Shown here piece after piece: positions 6,308 through 39,504 of a stretch of 64,000 nucleotides of DNA; the first letter of the stretch is position 1; every line of letters begins with the position of its first letter. The notes beneath the pieces are model-generated. The model did not search any database, was not told where the DNA came from, and saw only the letters and a list, made by a program, of their open reading frames with translations. Origin of the DNA: Paraburkholderia sp. (GTDB taxonomy: Bacteria > Pseudomonadota > Gammaproteobacteria > Burkholderiales > Burkholderiaceae); the NCBI GenBank assembly GCA_004322045.1, contig SCRN01000020.1, forward strand, positions 1 through 64,000, read 5' to 3'. Both the position numbers and the translations under genes were made by a program.

Positions 6308-6349
6308 GTTTGCAAACAGCACTGCGTAAAAGCGTATATATTGCTTTAG
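6308..6349 (+). promoter_or_regulatory. Candidate promoter of the phosphonate operon
   Basis: A TTGCAA at 6310-6315 and a TATATA at 6335-6340 resemble sigma-70 boxes (spacer 19 bp, a little long). The -10-like box is only about 9 bp from the ATG at 6350, and no Shine-Dalgarno sequence lies before that ATG. Transcription from here would give a nearly leaderless mRNA. This is inference from sequence only. Confidence 0.3.
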
Positions 6350-7036
6350 ATGGAAAATCGCGCTGAATCTTCCCCTCGCGCCATCGCTCCCATGCCCCGA
6401 ACGTGGGACGCTCGGCTCGCCCGCCTTCTCATCACGCCGCTGAAAGACACGCGCGTCACACCGAATCACCTGACCACACTGCGCCTCATCGTCGGCATCG
6501 CCGGGGCTGCCGCACTCGCTCACCCGACGTTCGGATGGCTCAACGCCGGCGCCCTGCTGATCGTCCTTTCCAATTTCATCGATCATACAGATGGAGAGCT
6601 GGCGCGCATCAGCGGCAAATCGAGCAAGCTCGGACACTTCTACGATCTGGCAAGCGATGCGTTCGTCACCATCGCATTGTTCGTCTCGATGGGCGTCGGC
6701 ATCGCGAGCGCCCACGGGGACGGCGTGTTTGCGCAGGCCACCGGGCTAGGCGGGATGGCGGGCGTCGCCGTCGCCCTCATTTTTTACATGCGCATGCGCA
6801 TCGAATCGCTGGCCGGCAAAGCCGGGACTCGGCAAGCATCGGCGGCCGGCTTCGAAACGGAAGACGTGCTCTATCTGTTGCCGCTCGTCACGCTCACGAG
6901 CACCGTCGAACCGTTTCTGATTGCCGCCTCGATCGGCGCGCCGCTATTTGCACTGTGGGTCGCGTTCGATTATCGGCGCATCGTGCGGCGCTCGCCACCG
7001 GGCGAGCCGGCAAGCGAAGCCTGGGTGTCGCGATGA
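6350..7036 (+). CDS. CDP-alcohol phosphatidyltransferase, probable phosphonolipid head-group transferase
   Basis: 228 aa integral membrane enzyme. The CDP-OH-P motif is complete: D78, D81-G82, A85-R86, G95, D99 and D103 with canonical spacing. These residues bind the metal ions and the CDP/CMP moiety. About six hydrophobic helices follow. Family members join a CMP-activated head group to a lipid alcohol, or the reverse. As the first gene of an operon that makes and activates 2-aminoethylphosphonate, its likely reaction is CMP-AEP plus diacylglycerol giving a diacylglyceryl-AEP phosphonolipid (inference). The stop overlaps the next start (ATGA). An alternative start at 6392 is possible; neither has a good ribosome binding site. 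Confidence 0.8.
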   Translation: MENRAESSPRAIAPMPRTWDARLARLLITPLKDTRVTPNHLTTLRLIVGIAGAAALAHPTFGWLNAGALLIVLSNFIDHTDGELARISGKSSKLGHFYDLASDAFVTIALFVSMGVGIASAHGDGVFAQATGLGGMAGVAVALIFYMRMRIESLAGKAGTRQASAAGFETEDVLYLLPLVTLTSTVEPFLIAASIGAPLFALWVAFDYRRIVRRSPPGEPASEAWVSR

Positions 7037-7854
7037 ATGCACGGATCGCAGCAAACGATGCGCCCGTACCGGCATCGTCTTCGAGCTATGGGCCGCAGGG
7101 CGAGGCGGCATCGATCGACGAGATCCTACGCGGCACGCTGCGGGGCTTAGATCGCGATGCCCTGCGCGCGCAGTTCGTGCGGCAGGGGGCGTTCCTTTAC
7201 CTCGACACGTTCCTCCCGGGCGAGCTCACCGTCCGGCTCGTCGACAGCGCGCGCTCGCTCGAGCCCGCCGTCAACCGCAACTACTTGCCTGGCCATAAGC
7301 AAGGGGGCAGCGTCAGCCGCCATACGATCGATCGTCTCGCGCCGCACATTGCGGAGTTGTACCGCTCACGCGCCCTGATCGAATGGCTCGAAGCGATCAC
7401 CGGCGACAAGCTGCTGCTTTCGCCCGACGACGATCCGCACGCCTACGCGCTTTATTACTACACGCGCGCGGGCGATCACATCGGCTGGCATTACGACACC
7501 TCGTATTACGACGGTCGCCGCTATACGCTCCTGATCGGCGTCATCGACGAGTCGTCGTGCCGCCTCGACTACGAGCTGCATACGCGCACCCCCGGCGTCC
7601 TGACGATCGCAGATTCGATCCAGTATCCGCCCGGCGCGATCGTGCTGTTCGACGGCGACAAGCTTCGCCACCGGATTACGCCGGCCAAAGCCGGCGATAT
7701 GCGCGTGTCATTGACGTTCGAATACGTGACCGACGCGCGCATGCGCCCATGGCGGCGCTTCGTCTCGAACATGAAAGACGCGATCGCCTACTTCGGCTTT
7801 CGCCAAGTGTTCCGCTCGCACGACGCGGCGTCTGCCGAGAAGAGAACGACATGA
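7033..7854 (+). CDS. 2-oxoglutarate/Fe(II)-dependent oxygenase in phosphonate operon
   Basis: 273 aa. The iron triad is visible: His153-x-Asp155 in GDHIGWHYDTSYYDGRRYTLL and the distal His213 in DKLRHRITPAKAGDMRVSLTF, with a following Arg that could bind 2-oxoglutarate. These enzymes use O2 and 2-oxoglutarate to hydroxylate a C-H bond. Possible substrates here are AEP (giving 1-hydroxy-AEP, known from Bacteriovorax phosphonolipids), the assembled lipid head group, or an acyl chain. It is not obviously PhnY, which acts in AEP breakdown and belongs to the PhyH branch. The start was chosen as ATG 7033, overlapping the upstream stop; it also overlaps the next gene by 4 bp. Confidence 0.75.
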   Translation: MNARIAANDAPVPASSSSYGPQGEAASIDEILRGTLRGLDRDALRAQFVRQGAFLYLDTFLPGELTVRLVDSARSLEPAVNRNYLPGHKQGGSVSRHTIDRLAPHIAELYRSRALIEWLEAITGDKLLLSPDDDPHAYALYYYTRAGDHIGWHYDTSYYDGRRYTLLIGVIDESSCRLDYELHTRTPGVLTIADSIQYPPGAIVLFDGDKLRHRITPAKAGDMRVSLTFEYVTDARMRPWRRFVSNMKDAIAYFGFRQVFRSHDAASAEKRTT

Positions 7855-8855
7855 CACGCACGGCAGCGATTCTGCTCTCGCTCGGGGCGGCGGTTTTCGT
7901 GGCGCTACTTGCACGGCAAGGCGCGGGCGCCGTTGCCGCCACGTTCGCCTCGGCGGGCTGGGGGCTGCTCGCCGTTGCGGCGTTTCATGCGTTCCCGCTC
8001 GTCGTCGACGCCGCGGCGCTCGCCGTGTTGCTCGCGCGCCCAGCCTCGTTCGTCGACGCGCTGCGCGCGCGCTGGGCCGGGGAATCGGTCAATAGCTTGT
8101 TGCCGGCGGGTCAGATCGGCGGCCCAGTGCTCATGGCGCGGCATTTGGCGCAGCGCGGCGTGCCGATGCATGAAGCGGCGGCGGCCGTCACCGTATCGAC
8201 GACCCTGCAGTCGGTCGCGCAAATCGCTTTTGCGCTGATCGGCTTGACGGCGTTCGCCGCTTTTTCGGCCACGCAAAATACCCACGCGGCGCACGTGCTG
8301 CACGTTGCGGCACTCGGTGCAACGGGCGTGCTGGCGGCCGCGATCGCGGCGTTTTACTACGCGCAGCAACGCGGCTTGTTTGGCCGCTTCTCACGCTTGA
8401 TCGGCAAAGCGCTCGGGGCGCGCAGAGCTCTGCGCGCGACCACGCGCGCCGATGCGATCGACGACGCCGTGCGCAAACTCTATCGCGCGCACTGGCGCGT
8501 CGCGGCATCGTTCGCCCTAAGCTTTGCGGGATGGGTCGTCGGCATCGGCGAAGTATGGCTCGCGCTTGCCTTCATCGGACACCCGGTCAGTTGGCTCGAT
8601 GCGCTGCTGCTCGAAAGCGTGGGCCAGGCGATACGCGGCGCGGCTTTCGCGATTCCCGGCTCGCTCGGCGCTCAGGAAGGCGGCTACCTGCTGCTCGCCC
8701 CGCTCGTCGGGCTCACGCCCGACGCGGCGCTGGCGTTGTCGCTCGCCAAGCGCGCGAGAGAGCTTGCGCTCGGCTTGCCGGGCATGGTCTATTTGCATTG
8801 GAGTGAACGGGATTGGCAGCGCCGGCGTGCGCCGCGCGTGCCGCTTACCGATTGA
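7851..8855 (+). CDS. Lysylphosphatidylglycerol synthase TM-like / HpnL-type membrane protein
   Basis: 334 aa, about eight predicted membrane helices, with the UPF0104/LPG-synthase transmembrane fold: ESVNSLLPAGQIGGPVLMARHL near residues 75-100 and AIPGSLGAQEGGYLLLAPLVGL near 265-290 are its conserved loops. There is no soluble synthase domain. Relatives flip lipids in MprF, and HpnL is linked to hopanoid transport. In this operon it could move the phosphonolipid or its precursor across the inner membrane (inference). It starts at ATG 7851, overlapping the oxygenase stop. A 51-bp gap with a GGAG-like site follows before the next gene. Confidence 0.75.
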   Translation: MTRTAAILLSLGAAVFVALLARQGAGAVAATFASAGWGLLAVAAFHAFPLVVDAAALAVLLARPASFVDALRARWAGESVNSLLPAGQIGGPVLMARHLAQRGVPMHEAAAAVTVSTTLQSVAQIAFALIGLTAFAAFSATQNTHAAHVLHVAALGATGVLAAAIAAFYYAQQRGLFGRFSRLIGKALGARRALRATTRADAIDDAVRKLYRAHWRVAASFALSFAGWVVGIGEVWLALAFIGHPVSWLDALLLESVGQAIRGAAFAIPGSLGAQEGGYLLLAPLVGLTPDAALALSLAKRARELALGLPGMVYLHWSERDWQRRRAPRVPLTD

Positions 8856-8906
8856 CGCGAGCCGGCCGCCGCGTCTTTCGGGTTCTTGCCAGGAGAATAA
8901 ACAAAC

Positions 8907-9671
8907 ATGCGAGCGATCATTCTCGCCGCGGGCCTCGGCCTGCGCCTGCAGCAACCGCCCGAACAGCAATTTCCCAAGTGCTTGTTGCGCTTTCAAGGCG
9001 TGACACTGCTCGAACGCCACTTGCGTGCGTTGCGCGCGGCCGGCGTCGACCAAGTCGAGCTCGCGCTCGGGTTCCAGCCCCAAAGCATCGAAGCGGAGCT
9101 CGATCGCATCGAGTGGCGGCCACGGCCGCGGATCGTGATCAACCCGCACTACGATCTGGGCAGCGTTTTGACGGTGCATACGATGGCCGAGGCGCTCACG
9201 CGCGGCGGCGACGTGTTGCTGATGGATGCCGACGTGTTGTACGACGAAACCATTTTGCGCGCGCTCGTGGCAGGCTCGAGCGTCGATCGGCTATTGATCG
9301 ATCGCGACTTCGAAGCCGGCGACGAGCCCGTCAAATTGTGCTTGCTGGACGGCGCGCCGGTCGAACTGCGCAAGCAGCTCGCGGTCGGCTTGCGGTACGA
9401 CACGATCGGCGAATCGGTCGGCTTCTTTCGCTTTCGGGAAAGCACCGCACGCCGCCTTGCCGACATCGTTGCCGGCTATGTCGCGAGCGGCCGCACCAAC
9501 CTGCCGCACGAAGAGGCCGTGCGCGACCTGTTGTTGGAGGGGGGACGCCCCTATGACGTCGCCGACGTCACCGGAGTGCCGTGGATCGAGATCGATTTCC
9601 CGGACGACGTCGCCCGCGCCGAGCGCGAAGTGCTGCCGCGTCTCGCGCAACCGGCGGGAGCCGAACGATGA
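8907..9671 (+). CDS. Nucleotidyltransferase, candidate CTP:phosphonate cytidylyltransferase
   Basis: 254 aa with the sugar-nucleotide transferase fold. The N-terminus [14 protein letters not shown] is the glycine-rich NTP loop, [10 protein letters not shown] carries the conserved Pro-Lys, and [11 protein letters not shown] is the metal-binding DxD-like strand end. Relatives include phosphocholine cytidylyltransferase (LicC) and PntC, which activates AEP as CMP-AEP. In this operon AEP is the obvious acceptor, which would supply the CDP-alcohol phosphatidyltransferase. The protein is well preserved in all the catalytic parts visible. A good Shine-Dalgarno (AGGAG) lies 12 bp before the ATG. It overlaps aepX by 4 bp. 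Confidence 0.78.
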
Positions 9672-11368
9672 ACGCGCGCGAGCCGGCTATCGCCACCCGT
9701 TCGCGCTTCGAACGATTGCGCGAGATGCTCGTCAGCGACGAGCTCGAATTCTTGATGGAGGCCCATAACGGTCTATCCGCACGCATCGTGCGCGAGGCCG
9801 GCTTCAAAGGCATATGGGCATCCGGGCTCGCGATTTCCGCGCAGTTCGGCGTGCGCGACAACAACGAGGCCAGCTGGACCCAGGTGGTCGACACGCTCGA
9901 GTTCATGGCCGACGCGAGCGACCTGCCGATCCTGCTCGACGGCGACACGGGCTACGGCAACTTCAACAACGTTCGGCGCCTCGTGCGCAAGCTCGAGCAG
10001 CGCGGCGTCGCCGGCGTGTGCATCGAAGATAAGCAATTCCCGAAAACGAACAGCTTCATTGGCGGCGAACGTCAGCCGCTTGCCGATATCGACGAGTTCT
10101 GCGGCAAGATCAAAGCCGGCAAAGATTCGCAGTCCGAAGCGAATTTTTCGCTCGTGGCGCGCGTGGAAGCGCTCATCGCCGGTTGGGGGCTGCAAGAAGC
10201 GCTTGCGCGCGCGGAAGCTTATCGGCTCGCCGGCGCGGACGCGATCTTGATCCACAGCAAGCTGTCGCGTCCCGATGAGATCCTCGCGTTCGCTCGCGAA
10301 TGGGCAGGCCGCGCCCCACTCGTCATCGTGCCGACGAAGTACTACAGCACGCCCACCGAAGTGTTTCGACAAGCCGGGATCAGCACGGTCATTTGGGCCA
10401 ATCATCTCGTTCGTGCCGCAGCGTCGTCCATGCAAGCGGTCGCGAAGGAGATTCACCGCAGCGAGACGCTCGTCAACGTCGAAGAACGAATCGCCAGCGT
10501 AGAGGAAATCTTCCGGCTGCAAAACGCAGACGAATATGCGGCGGCCGAACGCGTCTATCTGGCCGCCTCGCGCAAGCCGGGCGCCGCGATCGTCCTGGCG
10601 GCGAGCCGAGGGCGCGGGCTCGAAGCCGTCACCGCCGAACGCCCGAAGGTGATGCTGCCCGTTGCGGGCAAGCCGCTGCTGCGCTGGCTCGTCGATGCAT
10701 TCAAGAAACACGCGATCAACGACATTACCGTCGTGGGCGGGTACCGCGCCGATGCGATCGATACGGCGGGCATCAAGCTCGTTCTCAACGAACGCTATGC
10801 ACAGACGGGCGAGCTCGCCTCGCTAGCGTGCGCCGTCGACGCCGGGGACCTCACCACCGACACGATAATCTCATACGGCGACCTGCTCTTTCGCCGCTAT
10901 ATCCTGCGCGACCTCGTCGAAAACGATGCGCCGTTCACGGTTGTCGTCGACTCTTCGCACACCCAGGCATCGAATCGCACCGCGCACGATTTTGCCTATT
11001 GCTCGGCGCCGGACGAGCGCGCACTGTTCGGCCGCAAAACGCTGCTGCAGCGAATTCGCAGCGGCAAAGCGGATAGCACGCCGCCCGACGGCAGATGGAT
11101 AGGATTGCTAAGCGTTCGCGGGAAAGGCATCGAACGCCTGCGATCGATGCTTGCGGAACTGAGGTCGCAGCCGGACTTCGATGCTCTCGACGTACCGACG
11201 CTCATCAACGCCCTCATCGACGCCGGCGAGCAGATCGAGGTGCAATACGTTCATGGGCATTGGTGCGGCGTGAACGACCTGGAAGACTTCAGGCGCGCGG
11301 GCGATTTCGCGCATGCTCAAACGCCGTTTGCGCTTGGGCGCGGCAACAGTCAGGGGGAAGCGCAATGA
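9668..11368 (+). CDS. aepX: Phosphoenolpyruvate mutase fused to a nucleotidyltransferase domain
   Basis: 566 aa. Residues 1 to about 300 are PEP phosphomutase, which rearranges phosphoenolpyruvate to phosphonopyruvate and makes the C-P bond. The diagnostic loop [10 protein letters not shown] is at residues 120-129, and [10 protein letters not shown] carries the Mg-binding Asp pair. Residues from about 306 to 550 form a second nucleotidyltransferase domain ([23 protein letters not shown], a C-terminal GVNDLEDF). Its NTP loop reads LAASRGRGL rather than LAAG-x-G-x-RL. Fusions of PepM or AEP transaminase with PntC-like domains are known. ATG 9668 overlaps the upstream stop. Cytoplasmic; first committed step of the pathway. 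Confidence 0.92.
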
Positions 11369-12537
11369 TCGAAGCCGCACAATTCGTCGAGGCGGCGCGG
11401 CGCCGCGGCTTCTCGTGGTACGCAGGCGTGCCCTGCTCATTTCTCACGCCATTCATCAATTACGTCTTGCAAGACCCCTCGCTGCACTACATCAGCGCCG
11501 CGAACGAAGGCGATGCGGTCGCGCTGATCGCAGGCGTTGCGCTCGGCGCGCGCGCGGGCGAGCGCGGCGTCACGATGATGCAGAACTCCGGCCTCGGCAA
11601 CGCCGTCAGTCCGCTCACGTCGCTAACGTGGACGTTCCGCCTGCCGCAACTGCTCATCGTGACCTGGCGCGCAGAGCCGGGCGTGGCCGACGAGCCGCAG
11701 CACGCGCTGATGGGGCCGATCACCCCAGCGCTGCTCGAAACCATGGAGATTGCCTGGGAACCATTCCCCACCGACGCCGAAGCGGTTGAGCCCGCCCTCG
11801 AGCGGGCTGTCGCGCATATGGATAAGACCGGCCGCCCCTATGCGCTCGTCATGCGCAAGGGTAGCGTCTCGCCGTTTCCGCTCGCGCAAACGAAAGCGCC
11901 GCGCCGCGCTGCCTGCTTGGCACGCACTGAGTGGCGGGGCGTGCCCGAAGACGGCTTGCCGTCTCGGCGCGAAGCGCTCGAGCGCGTCATCGCGCACACG
12001 CCGGTCAGCACGACGGTGGTGCTTGCCTCCACGGGGTTTTGCGGGCGCGAACTCTATGCGTTGGATGATCGGCCCAATCAGCTCTACATGGTCGGCTCGA
12101 TGGGATGCGTCATGCCGCTGGCGCTAGGCCTTTCGCTCGCACGCCCCGACTTGAGCGTCGTTGCCATCGACGGCGACGGCGCCGCGCTCATGCGGATGGG
12201 CGCCTTCGCCACACTGGGCGCTTACGGGCGCAGCAACTTGGCGCATCTGCTGCTCGACAATGGCGCGCACGAGTCCACCGGCGGGCAGGCCACCGTCTCG
12301 CCTCACGTGTCGTTCGCCGCGATCGCGGCCGCATGCGGCTACGAATCGGCGATCGAAGGCGACGACCTTGCCCTCGTCGATACGCTGCTTGCGCAGCCAC
12401 GCCATGACGGCACGGCTGGGGGGCCTCGTTTCGCACGCTTGACGATTCGGCGAGGCACACCGGACGGGCTGCCTCGCCCCACCACCGCGCCCGCCGACGT
12501 GAAAGCGCGTTTGATGCGCCATATCGGCGCGGCATAA
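11365..12537 (+). CDS. aepY: Phosphonopyruvate decarboxylase
   Basis: 390 aa, thiamine-diphosphate dependent. It decarboxylates phosphonopyruvate to phosphonoacetaldehyde, pulling the unfavourable PEP mutase reaction forward. Evidence is the N-terminal TPP-fold stretch [20 protein letters not shown], the catalytic Glu region [17 protein letters not shown], and the C-terminal ThDP-binding motif [14 protein letters not shown]...[14 protein letters not shown] (GDG at about residues 270-272, Asn about 30 residues later). The family is usually 375-400 aa. ATG 11365 overlaps the aepX stop (ATGA), so the two are translationally coupled, as in other phosphonate clusters. Confidence 0.93.
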
Positions 12538-12550
12538 GGATACTCGCTCG

Positions 12551-13624
12551 ATGAAGACGCTCTTGCTCAACCCCGGCCCCGTGACCTTATCCGAGCGCGT
12601 GCGCCAAAGCTTGCTGCAACCGGATCTCTGCCATCGCGAAAGCGATTTCTACGACCTGCAGGACGAGGCGCGCACCCGGTTGCTGGATGCCTATAAGCTC
12701 GATCCGAAAAAATGGGGAGCGACGCTAATGACTGCCTCGGGCACCGGCGCGGTCGAAAGCATGATCGCTTCGCTGGTCCCGGCCGCTGGTCGCTTGCTCG
12801 TCGTACAAAACGGCGTCTACGGCGAGCGCATCGCGGCCATCGCCAAGCAGTACGGGATCGAATATCTCGCGCTTGCGCACGATTGGATGAGCGCCCCCGA
12901 TCTCGCCGCCGTCGCGAGATGCCTCGACACCGAAGGCCCCTTTTCGCACGTGGCCGTCGTCCATCACGAGACGACGACGGGCCGCCTGAACGACTTGCAT
13001 GGGGTCGGCGCGCTATGCGCATTGCACGGCGTGCAGTTGCTCGTCGACGCGGTCAGCAGCTTCGGTGCGGAGACGATCGATTTCGATGACGCGAATATCG
13101 CAGCGGTTGCCGCAACGGCCAATAAATGCTTGCACGGCGTGCCGGGCGCTTCGTTCGTCATCGCCACGCACGGCGCGATCGAGCGCGCCGCGAGCCGCAC
13201 CTATTATCTCGACCTGGGCCGCCTCGCCCGCATGCAAGCGGCACGCAACACGCCGTTCACGCCCTCGATCCACGCCTATTACGCCCTCGTCGAAGCATTG
13301 CGCGAGTTCGAGGACGAAGGCGGTGTGCCCGCAAGGCACGCACGATATGCGGCGCTGGCTGAGCAAGTGCGCAGCGGGCTCGCCGCACGCGGTATTGCAT
13401 CGATCCTGCCGCCCGAGCACTCGTCGGTCGTCCTGCGCGCATATGAGCTGCCACGCGGCGTCGCCTACGAGCCGTTGCACGATGCGCTCAAGGCACACGG
13501 CTTCGTCATTTACGCGGGACAAGGCGATTTGTCGAAGCAGCTGTTTCGAATCTCCACCATGGGCGCACTAACTGCGGCCGACATCGAGCGCTTGTTGCAA
13601 GCGTTCGACGTACTGACGCGCTAG
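12551..13624 (+). CDS. phnW: 2-aminoethylphosphonate--pyruvate transaminase
   Basis: 357 aa, PLP enzyme of fold type I. It interconverts phosphonoacetaldehyde plus L-alanine with AEP plus pyruvate; with aepX and aepY alongside, the synthetic direction is expected. Evidence is the N-terminus LLLNPGPVTLSERVRQ, CHRESDFYDLQ, MTASGTGAVESMI (PLP phosphate loop) and ATANKCLHGVPGASF, with the Schiff-base Lys at residue 192. The length matches PhnW (about 365 aa). It lies 13 bp after aepY and is the last gene of the operon. No phosphonatase (phnX) or C-P lyase gene is nearby, which argues against a catabolic locus. Confidence 0.93.
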   Translation: MKTLLLNPGPVTLSERVRQSLLQPDLCHRESDFYDLQDEARTRLLDAYKLDPKKWGATLMTASGTGAVESMIASLVPAAGRLLVVQNGVYGERIAAIAKQYGIEYLALAHDWMSAPDLAAVARCLDTEGPFSHVAVVHHETTTGRLNDLHGVGALCALHGVQLLVDAVSSFGAETIDFDDANIAAVAATANKCLHGVPGASFVIATHGAIERAASRTYYLDLGRLARMQAARNTPFTPSIHAYYALVEALREFEDEGGVPARHARYAALAEQVRSGLAARGIASILPPEHSSVVLRAYELPRGVAYEPLHDALKAHGFVIYAGQGDLSKQLFRISTMGALTAADIERLLQAFDVLTR

Positions 13625-13722: not shown

Positions 13723-14850
13723 ATGGAGCTGACTGAACTGTGGCACTTCCCGCGCCCCGATCTTGCGCGCGCCTATCTTGCCACGCTCAATGCGGGCCTC
13801 ATTACATCCACGACGATATTCGCACCGCGCCGCACCGGCAAGACCGCGTTCCTATTGCGGGACCTGAAGCCGTACGCCGAGACCGAGGGTTTCACGGTGG
13901 TCTATGCGGACCTCTGGCAAACGCGGCAAACGCCAGGCGCCGCTTTGGTTCGAGCCCTCGAAGAGGCCCTCGAGCCGCACTCCCTGCTCGAGAAGGTCAT
14001 CGCACGGCTTCAAACGCCGGTCAAGGCCCTGAAGGGTAAAGCCGAATTTGCCGGCGCCAAGCTCGAAGGGCATATCGAACTCGAAGACGATCAAAAGCAC
14101 AAGATCACCGATACCGCCCTGCTCATCGACGCCCTCGTGGCCGAACTCGCGAAACGCAGGCCTGTGCTGTTCCTCGTCGACGAAGCGCAGGCGCTAGGCC
14201 GCAGCAAGGAAGGCGAGGAGATGGCTCGCGCGCTGCGCACCACGTTGACCAAACATCAGCGCAAGCTTCGCATGCTCTTCACCGGGTCTTCGCGCACCAA
14301 GCTCGGCCATGTCTTCACGAATGCCAACGCACCGCTTTATTCTGCGGCCAGCACGGTGCAGGACTTCCCATTGCTTGGCGACGAGTTCGTCGATTACATC
14401 GCGCGCCGCGTCAAGGAATCGACCAAGCGCAAGCTGGATACCGCCGCCGCGCGCGAAGCGTTCGCGCTCTTCGGGCGGCGGCCCGAGCCCCTGATGGAAA
14501 CCGTGCTCGCTCTCATGATGAGTCCCGCGCTGGCCTTTCCCGAGGCGATCGCGATGCAACAGGAAAAGCTCGCACGCGGGGAGAACCACGAGGGAACGTG
14601 GAATTCGCTGGACGCCACCGAGCGCGTCCTGGTGCGGATGTTTGCAGACGACCCTTCGATGAAGCCCTTCGCCAAAGCGACGCTCGTGCGGATTCGCAAG
14701 CGCGTGGGCATCGAAGATCTGCAGCCCACCCATGTCCAAAAGGCACTTGGCCGCCTCGCGGAAAAGACGGTGGTGGCCAAGAGCCCGCGAGAGGTCTATG
14801 AATTCGAGAACGATAGCTTCGCGGACTGGGTCCGCAATATCGTGGACTGA
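13723..14850 (+). CDS. AAA-family ATP-binding protein with C-terminal winged-helix-like part
   Basis: 375 aa. Walker A is APRRTGKTAF (about residues 34-43) and Walker B is PVLFLVDEAQAL (from residue 147). An Arg-rich sensor region follows (LFTGSSRTKLGHVF), similar to the ORC/archaeal ATPase group and to TniB/MobA-like helper ATPases. The last 80 residues contain short helices (LQPTHVQKALGRLAEKTVVAKSPREVYEFEND) that look like a winged-helix domain. The function is unknown. It is a single gene between the phosphonate and dihydroxyacetone clusters with its own AT-rich operator-like promoter, which suggests an independently acquired module. The weak Shine-Dalgarno (TAGGAT) overlaps the operator. 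Confidence 0.75.
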   Translation: MELTELWHFPRPDLARAYLATLNAGLITSTTIFAPRRTGKTAFLLRDLKPYAETEGFTVVYADLWQTRQTPGAALVRALEEALEPHSLLEKVIARLQTPVKALKGKAEFAGAKLEGHIELEDDQKHKITDTALLIDALVAELAKRRPVLFLVDEAQALGRSKEGEEMARALRTTLTKHQRKLRMLFTGSSRTKLGHVFTNANAPLYSAASTVQDFPLLGDEFVDYIARRVKESTKRKLDTAAAREAFALFGRRPEPLMETVLALMMSPALAFPEAIAMQQEKLARGENHEGTWNSLDATERVLVRMFADDPSMKPFAKATLVRIRKRVGIEDLQPTHVQKALGRLAEKTVVAKSPREVYEFENDSFADWVRNIVD

Positions 14851-34570: not shown

Positions 34571-35681
34571 TCAGTCCCCCTGTGGCGACACGGTATGCGC
34601 GTGCCGCCGATCATCCTCGGCGTGCAGATAGAGGCCCGTCGTCTCGATCGAGGCGTGCCGCAGGTTCCACTGGATGAAGCGGATGTCGGTGCCGGCGTCG
34701 GCCTGGTGCGAGGCGGCCAAGTGGCGCAGCCAGTGCGTCGAGGCGCGAGCGAGCGTCGCCGCGCTGGCTGGATCGCTCGTTTCGAGCGCGGCGGCCGCCC
34801 GCCGGAACGCCTCTTTCGCGATCAGGTAGACCGCGGTCGGCGTCAGGTGCCGCTTCGCGTCGCCAGCGACGCTCAGGATGGCGGGGCTTGTCTCGCCCGG
34901 TGCTGGTGCCGGCGACAGCCCGTGGAAGGTGCGATAGCGGGCGAACTCGGCCATCAACGTGTCGCTGACTGGCACCTCGCCTTCGGCACCGCCCTTGCCA
35001 ACCACATGCAGCCACCAGCGCCCGCGACGCTGGAAGAAATCGGCCGCCTTCGCGTGCGCGGCCTCGCTCGCGCCCAGCGCCGTGTGGTAGAGGAAGCGCA
35101 TCACCCAGCGGCTACGCTCATAGTGCTGGCGCTCGCACGACGTAGCCTGCGGCCAGGACTCCACGGACTCGAGCACGACGCGCGAAAGCGCGGCATCGAG
35201 ATACCGCTCCACGCGCCGGACGCGCGCCGTGGTTGCGGCCCGGGCGCAGCGCAGCGCGAGCGGGTTGCCGGCGAGGTAGCCGGCGGCGACCAGATCGTTG
35301 AAGAGGCCCGAGAGGATGCCGAGCGCCTGGCGCCGGATTCGCTCGGCGAGGGGGCCGTCGAAGAGCCGCCGGGTGCCGCCACGGCGCAGCAGCGCCGGAT
35401 CGGTCCAATCGGTCGTCGGTGCGGTCAGAAACCGCTCGTAGAGCAGGAAGTCCTCGCGCGTGAGACTCGAGAGCGGCTTGCCAAGCGCGCGCGTCGCCCC
35501 GACCTCCTTGCGGTAACTGCGCAACGTGTGCGACGAGCCACAGGCGCACGGCTTCGATGTCTGTGTCGGCGGCGATCTGTCGGTAGCCGCCATGCGCCCG
35601 GTTGGTGCCGGCGTGGCGGTCGAGCACGACGGGCAGCGTGAGCGGCAGCAGGGCATCCGGGGTCGGCGCGGGCAGGTTCAT
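34571..35681 (-). pseudogene. Tyrosine recombinase (phage-type integrase), decayed
   Basis: The original start appears to be ATG 35681 (MNLPAPTPDALLPLTLPVVL). This frame runs to about 35535, where the protein (...DIEAVRLWLVAH) moves to another frame that continues HTLRSYRKEV and reads to the stop at 34571. A further in-frame loss seems to follow at KEV-GATRALG, where relatives have an extra helix. The catalytic domain keeps THWLRHLA (His-x-x-Arg), NLRHASIETT and the Tyr in GLYLHAEDD. At the first catalytic Arg, however, the box reads TALGASEAA instead of TGLRxSE, so that Arg is Gly. The gene is therefore probably inactive. It is divergent from the KfrA-like gene. Confidence 0.7.
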
Positions 35682-38426: not shown

Positions 38427-39461
38427 TCACTTAACGGCCGACCGGGGAGCAGGGTCTTTATACAGTTGTCCCGTCCTCCACATACTCAGCATAACGGTTG
38501 ATAGCTTTCGAGCCAGTGCGACAACCGCCTTCTTGTATCCCTTTTTTTGACGAATCATGCCAGCCCAACGTGCCAAGCTGGTTTCGGTTCCATAGCGTGA
38601 TAGCAAGCATGACGCTGCCTCGTACAGGAGCGATCGCGTCTGCCGGTTTCCCTGCTTGGAAATCGCCCCGTTTCTGTCGACATCACCGGACTGGTATTTC
38701 CTCGGAGTCAGGCCAAGATAGGCACCGACGTCGGTCACACGGCGGAAGCGTGCCGGATCGCCAATTGCAGTCTTGTAGGACAAAGCTGTTAACGCACCAA
38801 CGCCCGGAATCGACATCAGCATTCTGCACACGGGATCCTGCGCAGCTCGTTTCTCGAGCATTCTGCTGCACGCCCTAATTTGCAGACTCACGTGCCGCCA
38901 CGTATCCAGTAGCATGAGGATCACGGACTTCACTGCCTCGACGGAGGGATCTGCTGCGAGGACCTCGCGTCGGAAGACATCATTCCTACCGGGCGAAAGC
39001 ACCACGCCGAATGTCTTTAGCAAACCACGAATCTGATTGTTGATCGAAACCCGCACTCTCACAAGCCGGTCACGCGCGGAGATCAGCAGTCGTTCGTTGT
39101 GGCACTCGAGACTTTTGACAAAGGTGGGCCGATACCACCCTGAGCGAACCAGGTTGGCAATACCACGTGCATCGTTCCGGTCCGTCTTGTTCAACTGCAC
39201 CGTGAGCGCGGAATGCACATGACGCGCATGGATACAATCGATGTCGAGATTCAGCTTCCGCAACGAATGATAAAGCCACACGGCCAACGGGCCTGTCTCC
39301 ATACCAACCTTGGCGTGGCTGCAACCTTTGGCTTCGAGAAAGGCTCTGATCATTTCCGGTCGCGTATCGACCGTGCCATGACAAACCGTCTTCCCATCGT
39401 CGTCGACTACACAGACTGCCGTTTTTCGCTGTGCAACATCAAGTCCAACGTACGTATTCAT
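38427..39461 (-). CDS. IS110-family transposase
   Basis: 344 aa from ATG 39461 (MNTYVGLDVAQRKTAVCVV); the frame could also open four codons upstream. The N-terminal DEDD RuvC-like domain has the Asp in VGLDVAQ, the Glu in VGMETGPLA and KTDRNDARGIANL. The C-terminal Tnp_20 domain has SIPGVGALTALSYKTAIGDPARF and the Ser-containing NRQTRSLLYEAA. It appears full length and intact. It works as an RNA-guided recombinase in this family. Confidence 0.92.
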   Translation of the reverse strand: MNTYVGLDVAQRKTAVCVVDDDGKTVCHGTVDTRPEMIRAFLEAKGCSHAKVGMETGPLAVWLYHSLRKLNLDIDCIHARHVHSALTVQLNKTDRNDARGIANLVRSGWYRPTFVKSLECHNERLLISARDRLVRVRVSINNQIRGLLKTFGVVLSPGRNDVFRREVLAADPSVEAVKSVILMLLDTWRHVSLQIRACSRMLEKRAAQDPVCRMLMSIPGVGALTALSYKTAIGDPARFRRVTDVGAYLGLTPRKYQSGDVDRNGAISKQGNRQTRSLLYEAASCLLSRYGTETSLARWAGMIRQKKGYKKAVVALARKLSTVMLSMWRTGQLYKDPAPRSAVK

Positions 39462-39504
39462 GGCCTTCCCCATCGCGGTGATCGGAGCACATAAATTACC
39501 GCAT

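Follow-up and report, generated by a model that had tools for sequence, protein, structure and literature searches.

What is made by a compact run of seven genes on contig SCRN01000020.1 of a Paraburkholderia sp.? The window analysed here, meaning the whole stretch of DNA under study, consisted of the first 64,000 nt of this contig, and the host genome measured 6.0 Mb. Positions 6350–13624 were filled by seven genes on the plus strand (g1 to g7), and these same-strand gene calls bore out the operon that an earlier sequence-only reading had proposed. ATGA overlaps could be located at 7033, 7851, 9668, and 11365, with intergenic gaps of 51 nt between g3 and g4 and 13 nt between g6 and g7; the earlier reading had spoken of four genes joined by such overlaps, where the correct count is four junctions. 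Based on enzyme families, catalytic motifs, shared gene order, and co-occurrence across genomes, the operon probably makes a 2-aminoethylphosphonate (AEP) lipid, the head group of which is probably hydroxylated. This phosphonolipid pathway, already suggested by the sequence-only reading, is the best explanation of a set in which every gene fits. Within it we infer that g4 uses AEP as its substrate and that cytidine monophosphate (CMP)-AEP is the donor, and also which acceptor is used, at which point hydroxylation takes place, and that the lipid is moved.

The C–P bond would be formed by the products of the last three genes, which may convert phosphoenolpyruvate (PEP) to AEP. The PEP mutase domain of g5 (9668–11368) scored 395.3 bits with TIGR02320 (cut-off 319.55), the phosphonopyruvate decarboxylase (Ppd) encoded by g6 (11365–12537) 442 bits with TIGR03297 (cut-off 312.5), and the AEP transaminase of the PhnW-AepZ kind encoded by g7 (12551–13624) 396 bits with TIGR03301 (cut-off 360.8). 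All three are NCBI equivalog models with curated cut-offs, and the presence of these enzymes could thus be confirmed. The g7 protein remained below the cut-offs of two other AEP–pyruvate transaminase models (TIGR02326, 267.3 against 400.8 bits; NF010006, 273.9 against 296 bits). The E-D-K-x5-N-S motif that defines PEP mutases (PMC6697681) was present in g5, and its residues were invariant in all 38 aligned sequences. The C–P lyase component PhnJ had no match in the whole host genome, and the phosphonatase PhnX gave only weak matches there, the best reaching 54.4 bits against a cut-off of 220. The sequence-only reading had noted no phosphonate breakdown gene; these genome-wide results cover PhnJ and PhnX, the other breakdown enzymes not having been searched for. 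In the data set of PMC8931226, nearly half of the genomes with both phosphonate-making and phosphonate-breaking traits belong to the Burkholderiaceae.

Activation of AEP to CMP-AEP was assigned by the earlier reading to two nucleotidyltransferase domains. Both were indeed PF12804 domains above the cut-off of 27 bits, namely the stand-alone protein g4 (8907–9671; 51.4 bits) and the C-terminal domain fused to the mutase in g5 (54.5 bits), but they were unequal. PF12804 nucleotidyltransferases carry a G-x-G-x-R nucleotide loop and a metal-site signature. Both the loop and the metal site were intact in g4, where G9-x-G11-x-R13, P-K, MDAD, HEE, and WxEID were conserved in 33 aligned sequences, and the loop signature could also be seen in the solved-structure matches. 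The fused g5 domain, whose best hit was LicC, kept YGD and VND and had an altered loop, L-A-A-(S/G)-R-G-x-(G/N)-L. The loop Arg was missing in 38 of 38 sequences, with Gly (33) or Asn (5) at its position, and the first loop Gly was replaced by Ser in 32 of the 38. The best solved relative of g4 was 6pd1, a Treponema PntC-AEPT protein, aligned over residues 2–248, and the match to Tde-PntC was far better for g4 (E 4.2e-09) than for the fused domain (E 0.0051). PntC makes CMP-AEP, and some 60% of PEP mutases come fused to a nucleotidyltransferase (PMC6697681). Because g4 combines the intact signature with a PntC relative and the fused domain lacks the loop Arg, g4 is likely the AEP-activating cytidylyltransferase.

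The opposite assignment of this single step, which would be compatible with any of the products considered below, appears rather unlikely. It would make the fused g5 domain the AEP cytidylyltransferase, and a mixed lipid would result from the activation of inositol or another phosphoalcohol by g4. In its favour, 33% of PEP mutases carry a fused PF12804 domain (PMC6697681), g4 also matched a bifunctional inositol-1-phosphate cytidylyltransferase model, although below cut-off (53.7 bits against 580), and g4 adjoins g5 in L062, one of six regions of genus g21 that are described below. The missing loop Arg and the closer match of g4 to Tde-PntC speak against it, as does the company of g4, which stood with g1–g3 in 77 of 80 loci from named genomes, the other three being short contigs.

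The head group would be attached by the membrane protein g1 (6350–7036), which may take AEP from CMP-AEP and attach it to a lipid alcohol, in the simplest case diacylglycerol. The protein scored 50.1 bits with PF01066 (cut-off 22). Cytidine diphosphate (CDP)-alcohol phosphotransferases share the motif D-x2-D-G-x2-A-R-x8-G-x3-D-x3-D, and g1 carried it in full (D78-x2-D81-G82-x2-A85-R86-x8-G95-x3-D99-x3-D103), with all residues invariant in 31 sequences, as the sequence-only reading had stated for the motif. The structure model of g1 (mean predicted local distance difference test score, pLDDT, 79) had AF2299, PIP synthases, and an IPCT-DIPPS protein as nearest folds. Motif and modelled fold place g1 in the CDP-alcohol phosphotransferase family and say nothing of which acceptor it uses.

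Next to g1, the g2 protein (7033–7854) may hydroxylate AEP, CMP-AEP, or the finished lipid. It is an Fe(II)/2-oxoglutarate oxygenase that exceeded the PF23169 cut-off (41.6 bits against 26), and its iron-site residues H153, D155, and H213 were invariant in 30 sequences, which agrees with the non-haem oxygenase reported earlier. Weak sequence matches (E 0.07–0.09) were obtained to BesD and lysine hydroxylases, and the iron-site alignment read GWHYDT in g2, GWHWGD in BesD, and GWHWDD in the lysine hydroxylases. The structure model was of moderate quality (mean pLDDT 68), with HalB, HalD, HalA, and BesD as nearest structures at a template modelling score of about 0.5. In radical halogenases of the HalD type, a Gly replaces the iron-binding carboxylate (HxG). 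The best Pfam match of g2 being HalD, halogenation of the head group was considered; it was rejected because the carboxylate of D155 is kept and invariant, giving the HxD of a hydroxylase. By sequence and model, g2 is thus a hydroxylase-type member of the HalD/BesD fold, its substrate being a matter of inference. It shares fold and Pfam family with the BesD/HalD lysine halogenases and hydroxylases, whereas BesD has HxG and these enzymes act on a free amino acid, which g2 presumably does not. The closest named match of g2 came from Trinickia sp. Y13 (91% identity), followed by other Trinickia (77–80%). In genus g11, g1 and g2 formed one reading frame of 479–517 residues at all five loci examined (L031, L032, L033, L067, and L068), and both PF01066 and PF23169 domains were found in the two fused proteins scanned. 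This fusion argues that hydroxylation and head-group transfer take place side by side. The abbreviations of PMC5987646 (2018) include 1-hydroxy-AEP.

A search for the same gene order in other genomes, proposed together with the sequence-only reading, agreed with the operon. Among 398 sampled Burkholderiaceae genomes, PEP mutase (E ≤ 1e-60) was matched in 241, from 12 of 25 genera, and 40 regions around it were picked from the listed matches to span genera. In 31 of these 40 regions, all seven genes stood on a single strand and in the same order as in the window, so the order is no accident, and many of the regions retain 4-nt overlaps at several junctions. Six regions, all from genus g21, had the PEP mutase module without g1–g3; of these, L062 still has g4, and in L040 only g5 and g6 could be seen. 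The regions L034, L035, and L052 contained different, unfused PEP mutases (35–36% identity), which are counted among the 40 and were excluded from the g5 alignment by a score limit. The 80 named loci mentioned above (L071–L150) were the best of 330 loci confirmed in a g2 profile scan. In all 80, g1, g2, and g3 followed in order, and within the fetched flank 18 loci had all seven genes, 3 had g1–g6, and 56 had g1–g4 alone, the latter from genomes named Paraburkholderia (49) or Burkholderia sp. (7). Because g1–g4 occur alone in 56 of 80 loci and PEP mutase regions without g1–g3 occur in g21, the set consists of two modules, one for attachment (g1–g4) and one for C–P synthesis (g5–g7). Most of the Paraburkholderia loci examined have the set divided in this way.

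Judged by eye, a single contig carried both modules in the g21 genomes G344, G279, and G383, at distances of about 46 to 127 kb, whereas they lay on different contigs in G128, G206, and G235. The idea that glycan genes replace g1–g4 in the six g21 regions was rejected, since in G344 the contig with the PEP mutase region also holds the attachment module, at a distance of about 46 kb; among the genes upstream in its PEP mutase region (L041), nothing glycan-like could be seen by eye. Outside the family, a sample of 399 genomes from across the order had g2 matches (E ≤ 1e-15) in seven, of which two belonged to other families. Of this pair, G423 (L157) carries the same six enzymes in the changed order g2, g4, g5, g6, g7, g1, which favours the lipid reading, with an HpnL-like gene of 30% identity beside the set on the opposite strand. 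The other, G559, had only a g2-like gene (32% identity) in its stretch. A search of plasmids returned 15 records, 14 of them from Mycetohabitans, Burkholderia, or Cupriavidus and one a distant Roseomonas match.

Co-occurrence followed the same pattern. A g1 match (E ≤ 1e-40) was found in 243 of the 398 family genomes; 237 had both g1 and PEP mutase, 6 only g1, and 4 only PEP mutase. Among the last, G008 carries a PEP mutase of the different kind, and the G380 genome has a completeness of 60%. Within genus g21, 59 genomes with a squalene-hopene cyclase match (E ≤ 0.001) were divided into 48 with both genes, 4 with only g1, none with only PEP mutase, and 7 with neither. From these counts and the separated places of the modules, it follows that the modules tend to be either both present or both missing though they lie apart.

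The same loci bear on whether CMP-AEP might serve a phosphonoglycan or phosphonoprotein instead of a lipid. Under that alternative, which seems unlikely, CMP-AEP would decorate a surface polysaccharide or protein and g1 would serve another step. The PntC clusters of PMC6697681 were read there as surface glycan tailoring, and a capsule of Bacteroides fragilis modified with AEP is also mentioned in that paper. The PntC pathway of Treponema denticola, Atopobium rimae, and Olsenella uli shares with the window operon the PEP mutase, AEP production, and LicC-like cytidylyltransferases, and its clusters likewise pair a fused with a nearby separate nucleotidyltransferase (PMC6697681). The three PntC clusters studied there carry LicD or glycosyltransferases, whereas Pfam and NCBIfam searches found neither among the seven genes of the window operon, which has a CDP-alcohol phosphotransferase, an oxygenase, and HpnL in their place. 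The constant company of g2 with g1 and the HpnL-type gene in the 80 best named loci likewise speaks against this alternative.

It is very improbable that the operon makes a diffusible phosphonate natural product and uses g1 and g3 for export or resistance. Burkholderia clusters do make such compounds, for example flavophos (PMC12871164). The flavophos family was, however, mined through 2-phosphonomethylmalate synthase, with decarboxylase-encoding clusters set aside (PMC12871164), and both Ppd and AEP transaminase are present in the operon. Moreover, about 60% of the genomes sampled from the family have the gene set, mostly in a single copy, a prevalence more in keeping with a membrane component than with a secondary metabolite of patchy occurrence.

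The remaining gene, g3 (7851–8855), encodes an HpnL-type membrane protein (flippase-like, LPG_synthase_TM) with 321.2 bits for TIGR03476 (cut-off 195.65) and 104.1 bits for PF03706 (cut-off 33.4). Lipid movement across or within the membrane is its proposed role. The sequence-only reading had called it HpnL-like and concerned with movement; the family assignment holds, but HpnL alone implies neither hopanoids nor movement. The host genome encodes two HpnL proteins with 32.6% identity, g3 and a copy in the hopanoid cluster at L153:9448–14239 (contig C50), which contains HpnI, HpnJ, HpnK, and HpnL, the first three above their cut-offs. Like the HpnL of hopanoid clusters, g3 exceeds the TIGR03476 cut-off; that HpnL adjoins hpn genes, whereas g3 sits in the phosphonate operon, outside the hpn cluster.

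This paralogy raises the prospect, improbable on balance, of a phosphonohopanoid, in which g1 would use a hopanoid alcohol, for example bacteriohopanetetrol, as its acceptor and g3 would act as the carrier. The cyclase was matched in the host genome and in 242 of the 243 genomes with g1; G250, with a PEP mutase, matched neither g1 nor the cyclase, and G423, from another family, had both. With the cyclase matched in as many as 291 of the 398 family genomes, the nesting of g1 within it is weak evidence, which follows kinship. Against a hopanoid acceptor also stand 49 genomes with the cyclase and no g1, and G370, the exception among the g1 genomes, in which g1–g6 lay within a 20 kb stretch and no cyclase was matched in an assembly of 680 contigs. 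The co-occurrence is compatible with a hopanoid acceptor and no proof of it. Among the titles listed by a literature search, none joined hopanoid and phosphonate, and we know of no source that describes such a lipid class.

Several observations weigh against the AEP lipid, a product predicted from the genes. The residues Glu104 and Glu196 contact the amine in Tde-PntC (PMC6697681). Asp107 of g4 aligns with Glu104; Glu202 and Glu203, both invariant, fall close to the position of Glu196, where the alignment is gapped. Because LicC, the phosphocholine enzyme, likewise has Asp in place of Glu104, the AEP specificity of g4 is putative. In the fold ranking of the g1 model, human CEPT1 and choline phosphotransferase came lower than the folds named above, and CDP-alcohol phosphotransferases also use other acceptors. 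Six genomes (G065, G172, G218, G241, G271, and G314) had g1 without a PEP mutase match, for which gene loss, assembly gaps, or uptake of outside AEP are candidate explanations. Finally, the co-occurrence counts are raw numbers that ignore kinship, as do the Fisher values computed from such counts, which are therefore not taken as proof.

The sequence-only reading could not name the complete combination from the literature, but it is in print. The Fig. 7 legend of PMC5987646 lists a CDP-alcohol phosphatidyltransferase, an OG-Fe(II) oxidase, a nucleoside triphosphate (NTP) transferase, pepM, ppd, AEPT, and hpnL, for lichen Nostoc clusters and a homologous Burkholderia cluster, which the text takes as phosphonolipid synthesis; the pathway shown is an adaptation of one in Yu et al. 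2013. All seven gene kinds of that legend were present in the window operon. The Nostoc clusters belong to a different genus, the legend adds conserved hypothetical genes and higBA, and the comparison is by gene kind. Since the legend names the same gene kinds, the combination is not new; it is already published as a prediction, to which the window operon adds a member of the published kind. Further, Yu et al. is the source to which PMC12723261 refers for Burkholderia phosphonolipids with a hydroxylated head group. A report of the phosphonolipid itself was not found in a literature search of open-licence papers.

Upstream of the operon, a CGTATATATT element at 6333–6342 on the plus strand, just 5' of the g1 start, had one exact match in the window and three at up to one mismatch, against 0.67 expected. 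In 59 of the 80 named loci, the sequence GTATATAT begins 15–17 nt 5' of the g1 start codon. Of 31 loci in the set picked by hand to span genera, however, only 14 had it within 120 nt 5' of g1, and it was not found 5' of the six g21 PEP mutase modules examined. The element could possibly be the -10 box of a nearly leaderless transcript, as it sits so near the g1 start. A scan for sigma-70-like promoters gave no site against 1.4 expected, terminator-like sites numbered 13 against 7.4 expected (standard deviation 3.2), and the repeat scan revealed no interpretable repeat. Directly 3' of the operon lies an AAA ATPase gene (13723–14850; PF13401, 29.2 bits, cut-off 27), which had no NCBIfam match at E ≤ 0.01. 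Farther along the window, a tyrosine recombinase (34571–35656) and an IS110 transposase (38427–39473) stand near 2 kb steps of lower G+C content (0.507 at 32–34 kb, 0.569 at 38–40 kb, and 0.568 at 42–44 kb).

If the operon does make an AEP lipid, a hydrolysis-resistant phosphonolipid would be a common membrane component of the Burkholderiaceae, as judged from the 237 of 398 genomes with both genes, and it may have escaped routine lipid analyses. The split modules and the fused g1–g2 protein would offer clean handles on attachment and hydroxylation.

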